This document shows positions 6,889 to 26,569 of a DNA stretch of 64,000 bases, one piece after another. The stretch comes from Styela clava (lineage: Eukaryota; Chordata; Ascidiacea; Stolidobranchia; Styelidae). Position 1 is the stretch's first letter; each line of letters starts with the position of its first letter. The stretch is taken from assembly GCF_964204865.1 (NCBI RefSeq), contig NC_135258.1, positions 12,143,001-12,207,000 of the forward strand, written 5' to 3'. Below the pieces are notes generated by a model. That model saw only the letters and a program-made list of their open reading frames with translations, was not told the DNA's origin and did no database searches. The translations under genes were made by a program, and so were the position numbers.

Positions 6889-9555
6889 ATGACAGATGAA
6901 ATTCCAATAGTTGATCTATCAAAATGTGGACTTCAGGTTGATGATGCAGAAATATGTGATGAAACCATACATGATGTGGGGAAGATCTTATACCGCGCAT
7001 TCACGACATCCGGATTCGTCTACTTGTCAAATCACGGATTACCAAGGTAAAGATGAATATATATTTTATTTAATCACTCCATATATAAGGTCCTCTGTCT
7101 ATCACCCGTTCTATCTGAATCTTAAAAAACGTATTAGGCTTTTTTATCTATCGTATTATCTGAGATGTGACATTGCCGAATTGTGAAAACTAGAAAAGCC
7201 GAGACATTAAATGAAACCGTGCGATTGTAAATGGATAAAGCAGTGTTTCCAACTTTGTGTTTATGTCTAGTGAATCGATTGATGGAGTAAACAAAGTCGC
7301 AGAAGAATTTTACTCACTTCCTCTAGAAGAGAAAAGAAAATTTTACCTTAAAAAATTAGAATTTGGATATGATCCAGTCGGAAGCGGAAAGTAAGCATTG
7401 GCAATTCGCCATTTGGTGAAGTTCTCAAAATATACATGTTGTGGTGCATTAACTAATCGTTAACAAAATTTTTGTTTGATGAACAAAATAGCTGGAGTTC
7501 GAATATTTGATATTAACGATTTTCATCTATTTTTCAACATGGCTAACCCAAAACGAGAGTTCGATTACTACGAAGGATTTCGTATCGCTGGTTCCGCCAT
7601 GGAAGACGAAAGTACACCCTGGCCCAATGTTCCAAAGTTTAAAGAAAAGCTTTTAGCATTAGCTGATATATGTAAAATACTCGAGATGAGACTGTTAAGA
7701 GCTCTCGGAAGTGCAATGCGATTAAAAGTAAGTTCGTTCATCACGCTAGACTTCGCAGAAATACAGTATTAAGATAATAATACGTTTCTAAACTTGCTGT
7801 GTTTCCCCGAAAATGAGAGCTACCCTGAAAATAAGACCTAATCAATAAAACGAATGTTTTTTTTGCAGAGTCGTTAAAAGAAATCTCTCCTATACGTTTT
7901 AAATGATTAATCTGAAACCTGTGCGAGAGGAGAAGGTTCAATGACCTGAGATAGGGTTATTTATAATTAAATGGATATTGCTTTTCATATTTTGTATATT
8001 TAAAAATCTCGTAATTCTCTACTTTGTAATTTTGTTTTTATTAAATGAAAATATAAGGCATTCTCCGAAAATAAGCCCTAGTGTTGTTTTTTGAAAGAAA
8101 ATTCAAAAAAAAAGGGGTTTTATTTTCGGGGAAACATGGTAGTCACTGTAAACAAAGAACTGCACTGTCACTGTAAAAGTCCAACTTTCCTGTTTTTTTT
8201 ATAATACAAAAATAAAAAATTTGAAAGATACCACTTTCATAAGTAACCGACCTCCCACTAGCGTAAGTCATCAGAATTGTCTGAATATATTTCCCAACCT
8301 CCTCTGAGATGAATATGAATGGTTAGGAGAGGAAATCTTACTTTATATTTGCGTGTAGTATTATTATTATTAGTTTCTACCTATTTGGTATTATTGTAAT
8401 GCATATGTATATATATATGCATGATTTATAAACTATTCAAAATGTACAAAAACCAGAGTATAAGTTGCACATATCGCAAGAAAGAATGCGTCAATAAGGG
8501 TTGGGAACATCTAGTCTAATATTTTAATAGATTGATCTAATTTAATGTGATCATACCGCCAGTATGGGCACGGCAGTTTAACTATATAAATTAAACCACT
8601 TTTGATTTCAAAATATTTTTTACAGGATCCTGAATATTTTTGTAAATGCCATTCGCTGATGAATAAAAAGGGAAATATGACAATGATAAAAATTGTGAGT
8701 TATCCGCCAGTTCCCACCGATGATACTCTAAAAGAAAACCAATTCCGTATAGCTGACCATACAGACCATACAACATTGATTCTGTTATTCCAGGATCAAA
8801 ATGGAGGATTACAAGTGAGCGTAGATTCGTAATATTGTTTGCAAATTGTTTAAATGGACCGTAGAAATTTACTGTTAATCAGTTATTAGTCTCTTGCGAG
8901 ACAATGCCAGTATCCAAAATGCAATCGACATTCAAGATTGCTGGTGACAACGAAGTGGGGTCCGTAAACCACGCAGCCTGGAGAAAATTTGACGAAATCG
9001 ATTTGATAAATATATATCACTATTTATTGAGTTTAAGTTACATCAACTATATTAATCCAGATAATTGAGTAACGTTGTACATGATCAATGTTCATTTTAG
9101 GTAATGAATGAGAAAGGAGAATTTACTGATGTTACACCCATACCAGGAACAATAATCGTAAATCCTGGCGAAACGATGCAGAAATGGAGTGGAGGAAGAC
9201 TACGTGCAACGGTATTTACGTATTACTAAATTATTTGTATATGTCATATTATATTAAACTATAAAGCCACTTCATTGTAAGGAAGTATTGATAAATGATG
9301 TTTTTCAATATTCTAAAGAATCTAAAAAGTCGCTTTCTGTTAATTCAGCGTCATCGTGTAATGCCACCTCGCGATCAAAGTAACAGGATGAATACACGAA
9401 GATCAATCGTGTATTTTGGCCAAGCTGATGATAACGCTTTGATGGAGGAATTCGAGTATGAAGATGGGTTTGGTCACAAAACATCTAATGATGAAACCGA
9501 CAAGATTACAGTAAAGGAATACACAGATAGGCGTTTCATGGAAGTATTCCCGTAA
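6889..9555 (+). CDS. 2-oxoglutarate/Fe(II)-dependent dioxygenase, copy 1
   Basis: Soluble oxidoreductase of the isopenicillin-N-synthase-like family, with a DIOX_N domain followed by a 2OG-FeII oxygenase domain. Exons: 6889-7046, 7271-7390, about 7538-7727, 8626-8814, 9101-9211, 9349-9555 (stop TAA), giving about 324 residues, the usual family length. Exon 1 encodes IPIVDLSKCG and the SGFVYLSNHGLP core of DIOX_N. Exon 4 holds the HxD iron ligands in ADHTDHTTLILLFQDQNGGLQ. Exon 6 holds the distal iron histidine (RHRV) and the RxS 2-oxoglutarate site (RRSIVYF). All catalytic residues are present. The start is the first ATG before PIVDLS. All junctions are GT-AG except the start of exon 3: exon 2 ends in phase 2 (AA|gtaagc), but no in-phase AG precedes the conserved NPKREFDYYEGF segment. 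The substrate is unknown. It is one of two tandem paralogues. Confidence 0.88.
7797..8141. mobile_element. MITE with GTTTCCCCGAAAAT inverted ends (intron 3 of copy 1)
   Basis: The left end ctgtgtttccccgaaaat and right end attttcggggaaacatgg are inverted repeats, with a second inner pair (aataagacct and aataagccct). Copy 2 of the gene lacks the block at the same intron position (near 18355), so it inserted after the duplication. A fragment of the same family (ggtcttattttcgggtaaacacgg) lies at about 28120-28172. The target duplication is not clear. The superfamily is uncertain. Confidence 0.7.
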
Positions 9556-12887: not shown

Positions 12888-15800
12888 CAGTGGCGGCGCG
12901 TCAATAGGGCCAATGCCCCGGTTGTTTTTTTCGGTATAATAAAAAATATTCGAAAAATACCTCAATATCGGTTGCACAGACGACTGTCTACACTAGCCAT
13001 ATTCTCCCGACATGGTTCATTTTACGCTCGCAAAGCCTTCGCCGAACATCGACGGGGCGACGCCGATTTTGCCCCGGTTGCTCATTGTATATCGTATTCT
13101 CTCTTTTATCTTCCACTCGCCGCGTTTGTCTCGTTTGTTTTCTGTTTCTTATACTAAATCATCGGGGCCGATCGGGGCTAGCCCCGAAATTATGACGACA
13201 CAATGCCGACGTTTCTTACAACAACGTGTTGACATATTCACGCATTCCTTCTCGTTCGTTGGTTGCTTGAAGAGTTGATAGTTTCCTCGCCTTCGTTTTT
13301 GTCGCTTGTTTCGCTATTTGAATCAGTTAGAGACCTTCAGTCCATTTGCTTTCGATTTTCCACATTCCTTTTGAACTCCTCACTTCTTTCCGGCTTCGCA
13401 TTTCTTAGCCTTAGACCTCATAATGAATAAGGTTGATGCACTACTTCGCACTCCGTTTTCGCAGCTGCCGCTGGAACAAAAATTAGAGGCACAACGTCTT
13501 GGGCCTTATCAACCAAAAAATTGTTCACTGGAACAATCCCATGACGGAGGAAAGCGTCGGCGTACATTCTGCGCAGAAACTTGGTATAAAAAACACGAAT
13601 GGTTGTGTTACAGCGAGGACAAAAATGCACTTTTTTGTTTTTATTGCCTACTTTTTGCTACCGCCCGTGGCTCACGTTGGTGTAAATTTGGTTTTAGAGA
13701 TCTTAAACATCTTTCCGAGCGTGCCAGGGATCATCAATCTTCTATGGAGCATCCGGACAATGCAGTAAAATACCGAACATTCGGAAATGTTGATATTGCA
13801 GCACAGTTGGATGAAGGACACGCGGTTTCTATTCGTCGGCACAACCAAAACGTCGAGAAAAACCGCCATGTTCTCGGTCGATTGATAGATGTTTTGAAGT
13901 TCATTGGTTGTCACGAGCTGTCCCTCCGTGGGCACGATAAACGGGCTGGCTCTTCTAATAGAGGGGTATTTTTGGATATGGTGGAATACACCGCATCCCT
14001 AGATACAGTATTGAGAGATCATCTTGATGCCGCAACTGTTTCGAAAGGGACATCTAAGAATATCCAAAATGATTTGCTCGACTCAATGTATAAAATTTAT
14101 TTACAACATTTGGCTCTGGAAATTGAGAATTGCCAGTTCCTTTCGATTCAGTTTGACGAGACAACTGACATCACGTGCGTTTCCCAACTGGCTGTGATTT
14201 TTCGGTTTGTGAAAGATGGTAAACCTACCGAGAGATTTCACAGCTTTGTACCAATCGTTGATCGCACGGCTTGCGGGATATCGGCTGTACTGAAAGAAGT
14301 GTTACAGCCTTACAACGCGAAGTCAAAATTGATAGCTCAAACTTATGACGGCGCGGCAGTCGTGAGTGGGTCGAAACATGGTGTTCAAGTTTATATAAAA
14401 GAAGATTTTCCTCATGCGCATTTTTTACATTGTTATGCACACCTAACCTCGTTATTAAAAATATGTGTCTTGATACCCCTCTCGTCCGTATATTTTTTGC
14501 AAATGTTTCGGGGTTTTCTTCATTTTTTTCTGTTTCGCCGAAGCGCTCTGACCTCCTTCGCCAGATATGTAACCGCCGTCTCCCAGCTTGTGCACCAACA
14601 CGTTGGAACTTCCAATCACGCGTGGTGCAGGGCGTGTCCGAAATTAGGTCTGAGCTCATTGAGTGTTTCAATGGCATTCAGAGCTCTCCGGTTTGGGACG
14701 AACGCTCTGTGAGGAAGGCGGCAGGTCTAAAGCGTTTGCTAGAAGATGGTGAGTTTTCATTTTTTCTCGCTTTTTTCTCCACAATATTCTATCACGTGGA
14801 TGTATTATACGGCGCATTGCAGTCAAGGCTAATGGATGGAGCGTCTGTGCAGTCGTGTATTTCAGACTTCTGCGATGCTGTATCTCGTATCCGGGAAACA
14901 ATAAAATACGACGACACATGGGGTGCTTCTTTACGCCGCGGGCAAACAACGCAGCGTTTGATTTTGTCTGCAGAGGAATGCTGTGACATTCTGGTGAATC
15001 AAATAGGCGATCGTCTGCGCACTGAACACCTTGCCGCGTTCTCTTTGATGAACCCCAGAAAATTTTCAAAATTTGCACGTCAATTTCCCATCCATTTGTT
15101 GGCTACTGTCTCCAAATTTTACCCCATGATAAACGTGGGTAAATTGGAAAATGAATTGCGATGTATATACACCAACCCAACTTTTTTGAACATCACATCA
15201 ACTTGCGCGCTCTATGGGTTCCTCATAGATAACACTCTAGTAACTACCTTTGCGGCGTCTGCAAAATTTCTGGACATCATTTTGACGTCGGCTATTTCTT
15301 CCGCCGACGCAGAGCGAACATTCAGCACGCTGAAGCGTATTAAAACGTATCTCAGAAACACAATGAAGCAAGATAGATTAAATTCCTTGGCTGTTTTATC
15401 CATTCACAGAGACGTTATTTCTGGGATGCATGACTTTAATCAGCGCGTTATTGAGCATTTTGCTTCCAAGAAACCGCGGCGTGTTGCATATATGTTCAAG
15501 CAGTAGAAGTCTAGCAGCATATATATCTATGAGTGAGCGACGCATGTCCTTATCTTTGCATTACCTTTCCTTTCTTCATAGTAACGTTTTAAACCTTATT
15601 TTAGGTTTTGTCTGCTTTCCCGAAGTTTCTGTTAATATGTCATTGTATTTATCTGGGTAAATATTGCCTTTCCTTTTGAAAGAGGTTTCAAAATAAACTA
15701 TGTCTATATTTATTAATCCCTTGACTTGGACCGGTTTTAAAGACACTTTCTTATTGTCGCTTTTGCCGATTGGTTGTTACCGATGGAATGGTTTTTATAC

Positions 15801-17265: not shown

Positions 17266-19749
17266 ATGACAGATGAAATTCCAATAGTTGATCTATCAAA
17301 ATGCGGACTTCAGGTTGATGATGCAGAAATATGTGACGAAGCTATCCGTGATGTGGGGAAGATCTTATACCGCGCATTTACGACATCTGGATTTGTCTAC
17401 TTGTCAAATCATGGACTACCAAGGTAAAGATGAATATATAATTTATTTTATCATTTCATATATAGGATGTATCCACCCGTTCTGTCTAGATTTAAATAAA
17501 GTATTGAAGAATTAATTTTTTCTATCGTATTACCTAAGATGTGACATTGTCGAATCGTGAAAACTAGAGACGCTTAGACATTAAATGAAATCATGTTCAT
17601 GTCTAGTGAATCGGTTGATGGAGTGAACGAAGTGGCAGAGCAATTTTACTCACTGCCTTTAGAAGAAAAAAGAAAATTTTACTTCAACAAGGCTGAATTT
17701 GGATATGATCCAATCGGAAGCACAAAGTAAGCATTAGCATTTCGGCATTTGGTCGCAAGTTGCTAAAAAATGTACATATGACATATCCATTGTTGACGTC
17801 GCATATAATTGGCCGAGGGAAGCCGATGGCTTGGCTTAATGAATCGAATATATATGTGTAACAAAATATTGTGGTAAATTATTAGCTTGTCATGACCTGA
17901 ATACGATAGTACATCTATTAATCTGAAGTAGGTTTTGATTTAAGTATAAGTGTACAATGTTATCATAAAACAAAAAAATTTTCATGGCGAATAACATCAG
18001 CAACTAGTGTGTATGAAATTGAAAATTTAATTCAAAATAGCTGAAGTTTGAATATCAGGTCGTAATATTTCATATTAACGATTTCTATCTATTTTTCAAC
18101 ATGGCTAACCCAAAACGAGAGTTTGATTACTTCGAGGGATTTCGTATCGCTGGTTCCGCCATAGAAGACGAAAGTACACCCTGGCCCAATGTTCCAAAGT
18201 TTAAAGAAAAACTTTTAGCATTTGCTGATATGTGCAAAGTACTCGAGATGAGACTGTTAAAAGCCCTCGGAAGTGCAATGCGATTAAAAGTAAGTCGTTC
18301 ACCAAACCAGACTTCGCTGAAATACAGTATTAGAGAGTAATAATACAATTCTAGGCATAGTCACTATACACAAAAGACTGTACTGTAACTGTGAAAGTTT
18401 GAAAGATACAATTTCATAAGTTACTGACCCCCCGCTATAGCGCAACTCTTTTTTCGGAGTTTCTTTTTTCGGAGTTTTCGGAGGGGAAATCTCACTTTGT
18501 ATTTGCGTGTATAGTATAATTAATAGTTTTTACTTATTTAGCATTATTATAATGGATATATATATATATACATACATTTTGAACTATTCAAAATGAGAAA
18601 AAAACAGAATACAAGTTCCGTGCATCGCAAAAAATTTGCCGATTAAAATTAAAGATATATATATGCAAATAGAGTTTTTCATAAAAAGCTTGAAAAAACC
18701 GAGAGAGGAATGCGTCAATAAGGGTTGGCAACTACTGGTCTAATATATGAATGAATCGGTCTCATTTTATAACGCCAGTATGGGTACGGCAGTTTAATTA
18801 ACTATATAAATTGAACCACTTTTTAAATTCTAATGATTTTCAATAGGATCCTGAATATTTTTGCAAATGTCATTCGCTGATGAATAAAAAGGGAAATATG
18901 TCAACGATGAAAGTTGTGAGTTATCCGCCAGTTCCCACAGATGATTCTTTGAAAGAAAACCAATTCCGTGTAGCTGACCATACAGATTGGACAACATTGA
19001 TTCTGTTATTCCAAGATCAAAATGGAGGATTACAAGTGAGCATAGATTCGTAATATTGTTTGCCAATTGTAAAAATTCACTGTTAATTGGTTATTAGTCT
19101 CCCGAGAGACAATTCCAGTATTCAAAATGTAATCGACATTCAAGATTGTTGGTGACAACGAAGTGGGGTCCGTAAAATTGTCCTTGATTTATGCCTAATT
19201 GCGACTTCTGACTACTTTATGACAAAGTTCGGACTACAAAACAATATATTATATAAACATTCAATTTGAATATTTATTTATTTTAATAACGTCGTATATG
19301 ATCAATGTTCATTTTAGTCAATAAATGCAAAAGGAGAATTTGCTGATGTTACACCCATACCAGGAACAATAATCGTAAATCTTGGCGAAACAATACAGAA
19401 ATGGAGTGGAGGAAGACTGCGTGCAACGGTATATATCTATTACTAAATGATTTGTGTATGTCCTATTATATCAAACTTTAATTGAAGCCTATAGAAAATG
19501 ATGTTTTTCAATATTCTAAAAAGTCGTTTTCTCTTAATTCAGCTCCATCGTGTTGTGCCACCTCGCGATCAAAGTAACAGGATGAATACACGAAGATCAA
19601 TCGTGTATTTTGGTCAAGCTGATGATAACGCTTTGATGGAGGAATTCGAGTACGAAGATGGGTTTGGTCACGAAGCATCCAATGATCAAACGGACAAGAT
19701 TACAGTCAAGGAATACATGGATAGGCGTTTCATAGAAGTATTTTCGTAA
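17266..19749 (+). CDS. 2-oxoglutarate/Fe(II)-dependent dioxygenase, copy 2
   Basis: Paralogue of the gene at 6889-9555. Exons: 17266-17423, 17607-17726, about 18100-18289, 18847-19035, 19318-19428, 19543-19749, also about 324 residues. DIOX_N (IPIVDLSKCG to SGFVYLSNHGLP), the HxD ligands (ADHTDWTTLILLFQDQNGGLQ), the distal histidine (LHRV) and the RxS motif (RRSIVYF) are all intact, so it should be an active enzyme. Differences from copy 1 include H to W just after the iron aspartate, and RH to LH before the distal ligand, which may alter substrate or product handling. The same problem at the exon 3 acceptor occurs here: donor AA|gtaagc, then no AG in the required phase before NPKREFDYFEGF. 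Confidence 0.88.
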
Positions 19750-22618: not shown

Positions 22619-25600
22619 TCAGCGAAACTCAGGGAATTCTCTTGATCTTGGAGAACAAACGATCTTCAAACGTTTTTGTTTCTTTTGGCAAGTGCATACT
22701 CTTTCCACATCTCGGCGTATCTGGATGAATTTTGAGCCTTCGGGATAATATCTGTTAGTTGTGGTGTCCAGGCAACGTTTTTTGCGGACCCTTTGACTTT
22801 GCCCTGAAAACGCGCAGATTTTTAGTACATATATTTGTACAAACATAGTACACACTGAGCCTAACACAGACAGCACATCAAATACCGATTTACATGTGCA
22901 GACACTTATTCATGTACTCACCTATCTCTCTTCTATCGTGAAGTTGTTCACAAGATCCAATTTTTCCTCTTCCCCCTAAGCACATGCAACTCATCGGCAA
23001 CAATCCGTCAAGTTCGGCAACAAATCGTTCATTCTTTGCTACAAATCTACCAGTTCTTGTGTCACAACATGGTAAATCAACCGCTGTTATTTGATGAAAG
23101 AAATATAGCTATCATAATAACAACAGCCAATGGTGACCGTACATTTGAACCCATGTACATTTGAACCCATGCGTATATCCACGGGTTCAATCTATATGCG
23201 GGTGCTAAAACCCATGGGTTATAGTTAGTATGGGTTTAACTATCCGTGAAACAAAAAAAATTCCATAGGTGCAATAGCATACAGGTGCAATTGCCATGGG
23301 TTCAAATGTACGTGGGTTCAAATGTAATGGAACCGATGCCAATGCCCAATAACAACAGATGCCCAACATGGATGCCTATCAGACCTGCTTTTATCAACAG
23401 GTTATTTGTATCCTAATAAGCATGTGGTCAATTTTTACTATAAGAAAAAAAACGGTCCACTATTATGATAGCGTCACTGACCAGGGCGATTAAAATGTCA
23501 AATTTTTGACAATCGTATTTAATACTTTCTTTCAAATTATTTTAAAATTCTGTGATTACCTGCGCATCTTGACGATAAGTGGTTGCACAAACATTTGTAT
23601 TCTCCGATAATATCTGGAGCATAACTCATAATAACTCTTCGAGTATAAACAACATTGTATGGATGCCAGTCATCAGTATGTCTGTCATAGCACGAACCTG
23701 GGAGTATATAAATCGCATGTCTTATAATCAAAGGTGGGCTTCAGTAGGGTTCAAGCGAATCCGTTGGAATGTCGTGATGATCAGCGAACCCGTTCTTGGG
23801 CTGACAACAAGTGTAATAGTTGGCATTTTGAAAATTACATATTAGATTAATGTAAAGTGGAACCTGCTGTTAGTGAGGTCGATACAAAGAGAACCCGTTC
23901 TTAAGATTTTGAATCCCACCACGGCATATAATGGTGTTCATAAATCGATACTTTGCTGTCATGCTTTCCACGCCCCGATCAGATTATAGGAGCAAACAAT
24001 TTAGAATGAGCAATTTTAGGAACAAATGAAATTAAATAATGAAACTAATCTCAAATCCGTCATGGACTGGTAACCGAACGAGAGACCGTGGTTTGCCATA
24101 TAGTTAAGCCGTCTTATCGGCTTCACTCTCCCCCAGCATGAATATGTAAAACCTATCCTATTCTATCAAAACATATTCTGACCGTTGCGCCGCAGATGAG
24201 AACGTGTCGGAGGCGGAGGAGGGGGAATGACACATTGTGGGGATTTGCACTTGATCTTCAGAGGTCCAATCGAAGAACATGTGCATTGAAGTATTTTTTC
24301 ATTTTTCAAATATCTGACGAATGAGGTTCCACGTGCGTATACCAACCCCGTCTTAGAGTCTCGGCAAGTTTCTCTGGATTCTGCAATAATAAATGTTTTC
24401 ACAGGTTACAGCCAGTAGTGGGATTCAGCCGGTTCGCACCGGTTCTATAGAACCGTCTCACGGAATTGTATGGGATCAGCAAACCGGTCAGTATTATTGG
24501 TTACTGATTTTTTGTGATAAAACCGGGTGAAAAAATATGTCTTTTGTGATGGAGACGGCTGACAAAAAAATTGAATCCCACCCCTGGTTACAGCCAATAA
24601 TGCTGAAATCTTTAATTTAATTAAACGAGTTAGATAAAATTGTGTACAACCGTAAAATAAACAATATTCATCATGTACTTTAAGTGATACTTGCTCCACA
24701 CAAGGTTGTAATGGGGCATTAATTAAATAATTTAGTTTAGTTTAGCGTGTCTGAGAAGATGTATCCTGTTCAAGACAGCCCATTAAACTGGAGGAAAGCT
24801 AACAAACACATTGTCGTGTAAACGATAACTACATACAATGCTCTCATGACTGAGTCTATTACACGACTGATGGTTCTGTTATCTAAACAGATAGTAGGTG
24901 GGCAGAGTGTAGATTATTCTGATATTCTGGTAATGCCCTACCAGGAGTATCCGAAGTGCTTTGGAGAACAATACATGTAATCTGCTCGCAGTCAACCCCA
25001 CGGCAACTGCAATCGTAATTCTTCTGTCCAATTGACGTTATAAATCTTTCTCCACTTTCATAACGAGGAACACTGAAGTCACCTTCGCAAGTCAGATCTT
25101 GACCTAAATATTTTGAAATATCGTTATTAAACTAAAATCTCATTAACTCTACGGCTTCGCTGTTCACCAGATTGCGGAACCGCAACACGGTGCGCAATTT
25201 TTAAATTTGATGAAGTCATCACACAAAACTTCAGGGTTAAAATGAATTCCATACAGTCATCCACCATACAGAAATTTTCGTAATGAGTAAAAATAATAGC
25301 CTTCTAGCGATAACAACAATGTTTAACTACTGAAAATTTAAAAGCAAAGCGATTTTTCACAATAACAACAACAAAAAAGAAAAATACTAACAACAACAAT
25401 TTAACAAAACGATCGTGTTCAATAACAGAAAAGGCCAAAAAATATTATTATTTATCCTATGCCTGAATTTTTTGTCTCATTTCACAATGTGGACATCACT
25501 TCTTTCTTTGAGCAAAACATGCACAATAAAAACAGTTATCAGATATATATGGAATCGTGTCTATTGAGATTAATCACCATCACAAAAAAACGAGAATATC

Positions 25601-26569
25601 GTTCAGAGGCCGAAGACTTATCGATCGAAAGTTAGGGGATCCCAAAACAGCGCTCTTACTCCATAGTGACACCTTGTGTCCCGTCACTAATTAATTAATA
25701 ACTCGCTAATTATACGACATAATTCGGCCAAAATCAATAGGCTTCTGGTCCGAGATAAGATGAATGCGCATGCATCTGGAGCAGATTCAATTTCGCTTTC
25801 GTGAGATATCGCGTGCATCTAACAGACAAACAGACATACAGACAGAAAAATACATATCAACATACTTACCGATTGAAATCGATAAGTAATAAGAATAATT
25901 TTGTTAATGCATTGGTCTAGGGCTCTAGGCATTTGTTAATTGCGCGTGGGAAAAATGTTTTGCCACCAGGATCGAAATGAAATTGCATACAGGTTATGTC
26001 GAAAAGCAAGATGCTTTATGACGTACAATATTACGATACGAGAAATTAAAAATTAATAATTGAAAATTTCGTTTTCAATATTTTATTTTCGCTTGATAAA
26101 TATACGCTAATATTTTGTTTGAATAACTCATTTGAGTGACTTCTTTCGGGGTGGTTGTGCTATAGGTAAATTACCACTTTCATATTTCTAGTTTCAGAGC
26201 AACGATTATTAGCGAAACGTTGCCGAATACCATTTGTGAAATTGTTATGTAATAATTTTGATTCATTCAATAAAGTCGTGTTAATTCTTGCAACAGTATC
26301 CTCGCAGTTAGTACATGCTGTTCCACTAACATGAAGACAGAGATAAAAAAAATACTTTCGGAAAATCGGAACACGGTAATCTAATCAAGCATATTATTAT
26401 ATACATAGATTATTGGTATTCTTACTTCAATTTTGCTTCGACTATACTTCGCAATAATTATTTTCCACTAATAAACTACAAACTAGCAGAATGAAATAAA
26501 ACTCTACTTACATGAACCGATGAGTGAGATGCCAGCCAGTATATAAAACGATATGATAGTTCTTGCCAT
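22619..26569 (-). CDS. Secreted protein with four fibronectin type I-like modules
   Basis: Predicted minus-strand exons: 26569-26512 (signal peptide, starting MARTIISFYILAGISLIGS), 25103-24942, 24380-24183, 23697-23560, 22803-22619 (stop TGA). Every internal junction is phase 1 and the summed length is a whole number of codons (246 residues). Each of the last four exons carries one finger module with the spacing C-x-D-x(6)-Y-x2-G-x2-F...C-x-C...C; for example, exon 3 has CRDSKTGLVYARGTSFVR and then CTC, and exon 5 has CLDTTTNRYYPEGSKF and then CTC. Module 1 has G instead of D after the first Cys; module 3 (CYDRH...) is more divergent, lacking the Gly. Module 1 could also read through to a stop at 24883 (92-residue product) and module 2 to 24166. 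FN1 modules normally bind fibrin or matrix proteins. The role here is unknown. The phase-1 chain is strong evidence, while the donors of exons 2 and 3 (G|gtaggg, G|gtcaga) are weaker. Confidence 0.62.
23146..23330. repeat. Foldback element with repeated 'acatttgaaccca' arms
   Basis: The left arm has two tandem copies of 'acatttgaacccatg'. The right arm has the reverse complement, again twice ('catgggttcaaatgt', 'cgtgggttcaaatgt'). The centre also holds shorter inverted pairs (acccatgggt). The block lies in the last intron of the finger-module gene. It is probably a non-autonomous foldback/MITE. No protein is encoded. Confidence 0.6.
24063..24165 (+). mobile_element. SINE, 3' part
   Basis: Same family as 1819-2126, plus orientation. 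Shared blocks include ggtaaccg.acgagag, gccatat.gttaagccgt, tatcggctt and the tail cctatcctattctat. The tail ends directly at the in-frame TGA that would terminate read-through of finger exon 3 (24166), 17 bases beyond that exon's proposed donor. Confidence 0.7.
24413..24586. mobile_element. hAT MITE, 174 bp, perfect target duplication
   Basis: The ends are CAGTAGTGGGATTCAGCCGG and TTGAATCCCACCCCTG. The 8-bp duplication gttacagc is identical on both sides (24405-24412 and 24587-24594). It is the same family as 16457-16636, inverted. It sits in the intron just upstream of the second finger-module exon. Confidence 0.9.
25575..25893 (-). repeat. Dispersed repeat of about 310 bp, inverted relative to 45005-45315
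   Basis: The block runs from 'cacaaaaaaacgagaatat' through 'ccgaagacttatcgatcgaaag', 'aataactcgctaattatacg' and 'ggcttctggtccgagataag' to a gtctgt-type simple repeat and 'accgattgaaatcgataagt'. The reverse complement of essentially every part occurs in the same order at 45005-45315. This one lies in the first intron of the finger-module gene. Class not assigned; the conserved body next to a CAGA/TCTG microsatellite suggests a non-autonomous DNA element. Confidence 0.7.

Follow-up and report, generated by a model that had tools for sequence, protein, structure and literature searches.

A probable tunicate gene for a secreted protein composed solely of five fibronectin type I modules

How did the fibronectin type I (FN1) module, found in fibronectin and in the proteases of clotting and fibrinolysis, move between proteins? 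A tunicate gene consisting of FN1 modules alone, each encoded by a single phase-1 exon, would, together with a mosaic paralogue in the same genome, offer a concrete case of such movement among chordates. We analyzed a window of 64,000 nucleotides from the ascidian Styela clava (assembly GCF_964204865.1, contig NC_135258.1, forward-strand positions 12,143,001 to 12,207,000), in which an earlier note had pointed to a compact gene encoding a signal peptide and four FN1 modules. We conclude that this locus is probably a complete tunicate gene whose secreted, disulphide-rich product would consist of five FN1 modules alone.

The gene occupies positions 26569 to 22619 of the minus strand. Its six exons, spliced by GT-AG, give 903 nucleotides, that is 300 codons and a stop. 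Joining the exons bore out the strand, the two ends, the signal peptide and the terminal stop of the earlier note, as well as its claim of one module per exon with every junction in phase 1: all five introns are in this phase, with GT-AG throughout. Its counts, four modules and 246 codons, do not hold, as five module exons and 300 codons were found. Omission of either 162-nucleotide exon yields exactly 246 codons, so one exon had been overlooked, and a four-module gene was rejected on the grounds that the joined exons hold five. An in-frame TAG lies two codons 5' of the ATG of exon 1, and the signal peptide is the hydropathy peak of the protein (11-residue mean of 2.1, against 1.5 for the next value elsewhere). 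Besides module 2, exon 3 encodes a basic linker that is rich in Pro and holds one extra Cys; the donor of this exon is weak (GTCAGA). The codon-usage test of the gene was mixed and weak.

Could such an array have arisen by chance? The four-Cys frame C...CxC...C is present in all five modules, with all 20 module Cys in place; one Cys beyond this frame is found in each of modules 1 and 4. The six frames of the window were searched with an open pattern, C-x(20,32)-CxC-x(4,12)-C, which was written once the modules had already been seen, and seven distinct places were obtained, five of them being the modules of the gene, on one strand and within at most 2.4 kb. Sixty simulated windows contained 1.8 such places on average and 5 at the maximum; never did they show more than two per 2.5 kb of one strand, two being reached in 4 of the 60. 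The four internal modules all have phase-1 AG and GT flanks; the terminal one lacks a donor and does not require one. The two remaining pattern places in the window each lack at least one of these flanks. The cluster of modules exceeds chance.

Within this frame, the earlier note had seen three modules fitting closely, and one diverging from, a spacing with Asp at +2, an aromatic residue at +9, Gly at +12 and Phe at +15. The rule is exact for modules 2 and 5, but modules 1, 3 and 4 deviate from it: module 3 departs at three positions (His +9, Asn +12, Tyr +15) and module 4 at two (Val +9, Asn +12), while in module 1 the Asp stands at +3. Modules 1, 2 and 5 carry Tyr at +9, and the Trp position is taken by Phe or Tyr in all five. 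The core tyrosine and tryptophan of FN1 are described in PMC3280255. The human fibronectin module matched by phmmer likewise has Tyr at the Trp position.

Are these modules indeed FN1? With the whole protein as query, fn1 was the sole Pfam family up to an E-value of 10 (24.3 bits). As for the search of the exons with Pfam fn1 (PF00039) proposed in the earlier note, modules 2 and 4 match, with scores below the curated cut-off of 27 bits, which is an annotation threshold rather than a structural trait; modules 1, 3 and 5 gave no match. A pair of FN1 modules from human fibronectin was matched by phmmer (E 0.0026). Searching the PDB with a profile of the five modules returned FN1 proteins in 8 of 10 matches (best E 0.0053), and an 11-module profile, built on four modules of the gene (module 3 left out) and seven of a paralogue elsewhere in the genome, on C2 (the C2 paralogue), returned FN1 in 13 of 16 matches, including all of the top 12, human FN1 structures coming first (best E 5.9e-10). 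We also built leave-one-out profiles from nine of ten seed modules, five from the gene and five from C2, and searched them in 4038 open reading frames (ORFs) of three loci; the leave-one-out values of Table 1 partly depend on the Cys pattern, by which the seeds were chosen. On this sequence basis, modules 1, 2, 4 and 5 stand as FN1, to differing degrees.

When modules 2 and 5 were modelled with AlphaFold, the models had FN1 modules as their best Foldseek matches, FN1-bearing chains filling ranks 1-23 and 1-28, respectively, and the five-strand fold of A-B and C-D-E sheets is present in the predicted structure. No other family stands above FN1 in these Foldseek lists, a ranking that by itself excludes none. 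The FN1 interpretation of the earlier note is thus supported for the modules as a set by the Cys frame, by profile and, for two of the five, by predicted fold, and the gene as modelled is composed solely of such modules. Module 3 taken alone is not significant (leave-one-out E 4.6; hhalign probability 12.6%, E 0.0023) and is assigned by its Cys frame, its splice sites and its position among the other modules.

Table 1. Position of the gene's exons, of the paralogue and of other features; positions refer to the window, except for the paralogue
Feature	Position	Strand	Evidence or remark
Exon 1: ATG and signal peptide MARTIISFYILAGISLIGS(C)	26512..26569	-	donor GTAAGT
Exon 2: FN1-like module 1 with an additional Cys; Cys frame 25089-24973	24942..25103	-	leave-one-out hidden Markov model E 0.013; no Pfam match
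Exon 3: FN1 module 2, 24366-24247	24183..24380	-	Pfam fn1 9.5e-5, 22.9 bits; leave-one-out 3.2e-5; FN1 by AlphaFold and Foldseek
Exon 4: divergent FN1-like module 3, 23692-23564	23560..23697	-	Cys frame, phase-1 flanks; no Pfam match
Exon 5: FN1 module 4, 23069-22950	22922..23083	-	Pfam fn1 1.3e-3, 19.3 bits; leave-one-out 8.3e-8
Exon 6: RKKR, FN1 module 5, 22774-22655, stop TGA 22621-22619	22619..22803	-	leave-one-out 1.2e-4; FN1 by AlphaFold and Foldseek; no Pfam match
C2 paralogue: signal-peptide candidate, FN1 x5, EGF x4, FN1 x2	C2:17016167-17004615	-	read by eye and by profile
Inverted repeat around TTTGAACCCA, intron 4	23144-23322		
hAT-type transposon remnant	13375-15503	+	DUF4371 1.8e-16, hAT dimerisation 2.7e-8
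ORFs flanking the transposon	7464-7769, 18041-18337	+	no Pfam match; no PDB match for the second
Open frame of 828 residues	35775-38258	+	no match in Pfam to E 0.1; best PDB match 0.32, not significant

The whole protein was also searched in the genome (376.6 Mb). The best candidates listed were its own six exons and the C2 paralogue (6.5e-5 at C2:17015219), besides a place on C4 that is interrupted by stops and matches poorly (E 2.6). Both the gene and the paralogue combine a signal-peptide candidate with five FN1 exons at which phase-1 sites are available; the larger paralogue differs by continuing into four EGF modules and a further pair of FN1 modules, a second unusual arrangement of FN1, and the order of the modules does not correspond one to one. 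Of its 11 module exons, 10 offer both acceptors and donors in phase 1, and the last one has a stop and candidate phase-1 acceptors, a donor not being needed. When six of its seven FN1 modules were submitted to Pfam, three gave weak fn1 matches (0.0011, 0.0065 and 0.03) and three gave none; three of its four EGF modules were submitted as well and gave strong EGF matches. A profile of the C2 modules matched the five modules of the gene with a probability of 96.7% (E 4e-10), and the nearest relative of module 4 is C2 module b (44% identity, blastp 6e-12 among 11 modules). Throughout the genome, module 2 ranks third of the 12 places scored by Pfam fn1, and FN2 was found at 27 places, 22 of them above the cut-off.

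Other readings of the locus have to be weighed. The modules could be N-terminal subdomains of VWC, which have a related fold. The earlier note had envisaged that searches might favour another Cys-rich family; profile and fold gave FN1, with VWC subdomains lower. A VWC module has a second subdomain and about ten Cys, whereas each module here holds a single C...CxC...C frame, with the second subdomain absent. Since fn1 scores 9.5e-5 on the same module and FN1-bearing chains lead both Foldseek lists, VWC was rejected as less likely, and we hold it to be very improbable. One could also assume that the gene is a decaying, unexpressed copy, given that module 3 has drifted, that the exon 3 donor is weak and that codon scores are mixed. 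We regard this as quite unlikely in view of 300 codons kept open over six exons, GT-AG at each junction, 20 of 20 module Cys retained and no second copy in the genome among the best candidates listed.

Is the gene complete, and are all its modules used? It would be part of a larger mosaic if further exons, for instance EGF, were reached by alternative splicing or lay farther off. The C2 paralogue lends this some credit, as it opens alike, with a signal peptide and five FN1, before its EGF modules, and a phase-1 GT does overlap the last Cys codon of exon 6. However, this GT makes a poor donor (GTTCTC), there is just one more GT ahead of the stop, in phase 2, and the stop itself comes within 13 codons of that Cys codon. 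No EGF pattern was found 3' of the gene on its strand over 32 kb, in ORFs of at least 25 residues, and no module was recognised by eye in the downstream minus-strand ORFs with at least four Cys. A larger mosaic is, in our judgement, quite unlikely. The four internal exons are 1-1 and of lengths divisible by three, so skipping any one of them would preserve the frame and a four-module form could be made in this way; apart from the weak donor of exon 3, no sign of site skipping was seen, and such a form seems unlikely. We retain a complete five-module gene as the preferred reading.

How does this protein compare with known ones? Like the five N-terminal FN1 of vertebrate fibronectin, or the migration-stimulating factor (a truncated splice form of fibronectin), it would be a secreted FN1 array apart from FN3. 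Unlike fibronectin, it has its own gene without FN2 or FN3 (fn1 only in 300 residues), lacks the IGD motif and carries Phe or Tyr where many FN1 have Trp. Its modules would have the FN1 fold in common with tPA and factor XII; however, no kringle, EGF or protease (trypsin) domain such as those of tPA, factor XII or HGF activator was found in it with Pfam. Excerpts of a paper on the plasminogen system assign FN1 to proteases of vertebrates, and the lower-chordate matches tabulated there include none with FN1 (PMC6337849). Ci-FN from Ciona is also a secreted tunicate protein with FN1, but it has 3698 residues, arranged as 3 FN1, 2 FN2, 29 FN3 with Ig and 3 FN1, against 300 residues and FN1 only here; the same source states that FN1 is known only from deuterostome proteins (PMC5006582).

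No FN1-only protein was found described in the titles and abstract openings of the literature matches listed, predicted database proteins being outside this scope, and none appears in the excerpts of PMC5006582, PMC6337849, PMC8001218, PMC3280255, PMC1578592, PMC6526912 and PMC2527998. The gene is, within these sources, a new architecture of a known module, FN1 itself being already known in tunicate fibronectin (PMC5006582).

What could be the role of such a protein? The mature form would have about 281 residues, 32 kDa and a pI of 9.0, with 24 Cys past the signal peptide, 20 of them within module frames. RGD, IGD and LDV motifs are absent from the 300 residues, and a single R-x-K/R-R site, RKKR, precedes module 5. 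We infer a free-standing FN1 array, a putative binding protein of the matrix or the haemolymph. The net charge by exon is -6 for module 1, +10 for module 2 and +12 for module 5 (with RKKR). The two strongly basic exons suggest that the ligands may be acidic, either glycans or peptide strands, and these would be located in the tunic, the matrix or the haemolymph.

Linkers in fibronectin are shorter than those of this protein, in which three of the four stretches between module Cys are long (15, 23 and 19 residues), only that between modules 3 and 4 being short (6). This makes a single long peptide running across all modules less likely than for the five-module N-terminal unit of fibronectin, and the modules may rather act as separate beads holding ligands than as one continuous zipper. 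Tail-to-head FN1 modules of fibronectin bind unfolded peptides through strand addition, truncated forms from its N-terminal region act on their own, and a title cited in the same paper presents five type I modules as a functional unit (PMC3280255). A small natural FN1 protein could be used to probe what FN1 arrays bind.

As to its origin, it is most likely that phase-1 FN1 exons, akin to those of the FN1-EGF mosaic on C2, were duplicated to give the gene. A bolder and rather doubtful hypothesis would be that free-standing FN1-array proteins form a family maintained in tunicates, with this one as its smallest member, that their spread by shuffling of phase-1 exons was independent of fibronectin, and that such arrays could be donor units for the N-terminus of chordate fibronectin.

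FN1-like exons were also noticed at other loci. A third kind occurs on C4, where an FN1 exon of 34.3 bits lies beside VWC-like pieces read by eye; the fn1 score of 8.7e-11 obtained there is that of two exon pieces joined by eye. Two C4 places 33 kb apart (6242019 and 6274990) each have an FN1-like exon with such pieces, perhaps a tandem gene family. At C17:10177137, where plus-strand ORFs were viewed, a weak FN1-like exon (E 0.19; 0.17 with the FN1-module profile) stands just ahead of exons read by eye as YWTD-type and EGF repeats, as in a receptor-like gene.

Within the window, the inverted repeat of intron 4 is perhaps a small mobile element. The transposon remnant consists of two overlapping frames, and the two ORFs flanking it share a near-identical core; the frame of 828 residues is Ser/Thr-rich by eye. 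Finally, C9 carries a cellulose synthase exon (2.2e-4), and exons of glycosyl hydrolase 6 come after it on the same strand (9.9e-11 with Pfam, and another at 5.1e-4, below the cut-off). The animals known to have cellulose synthase are tunicates, and the combination of the two suggests a tunicate. The ascidian cellulose synthase gene has been called a case of horizontal transfer (PMC6339383).
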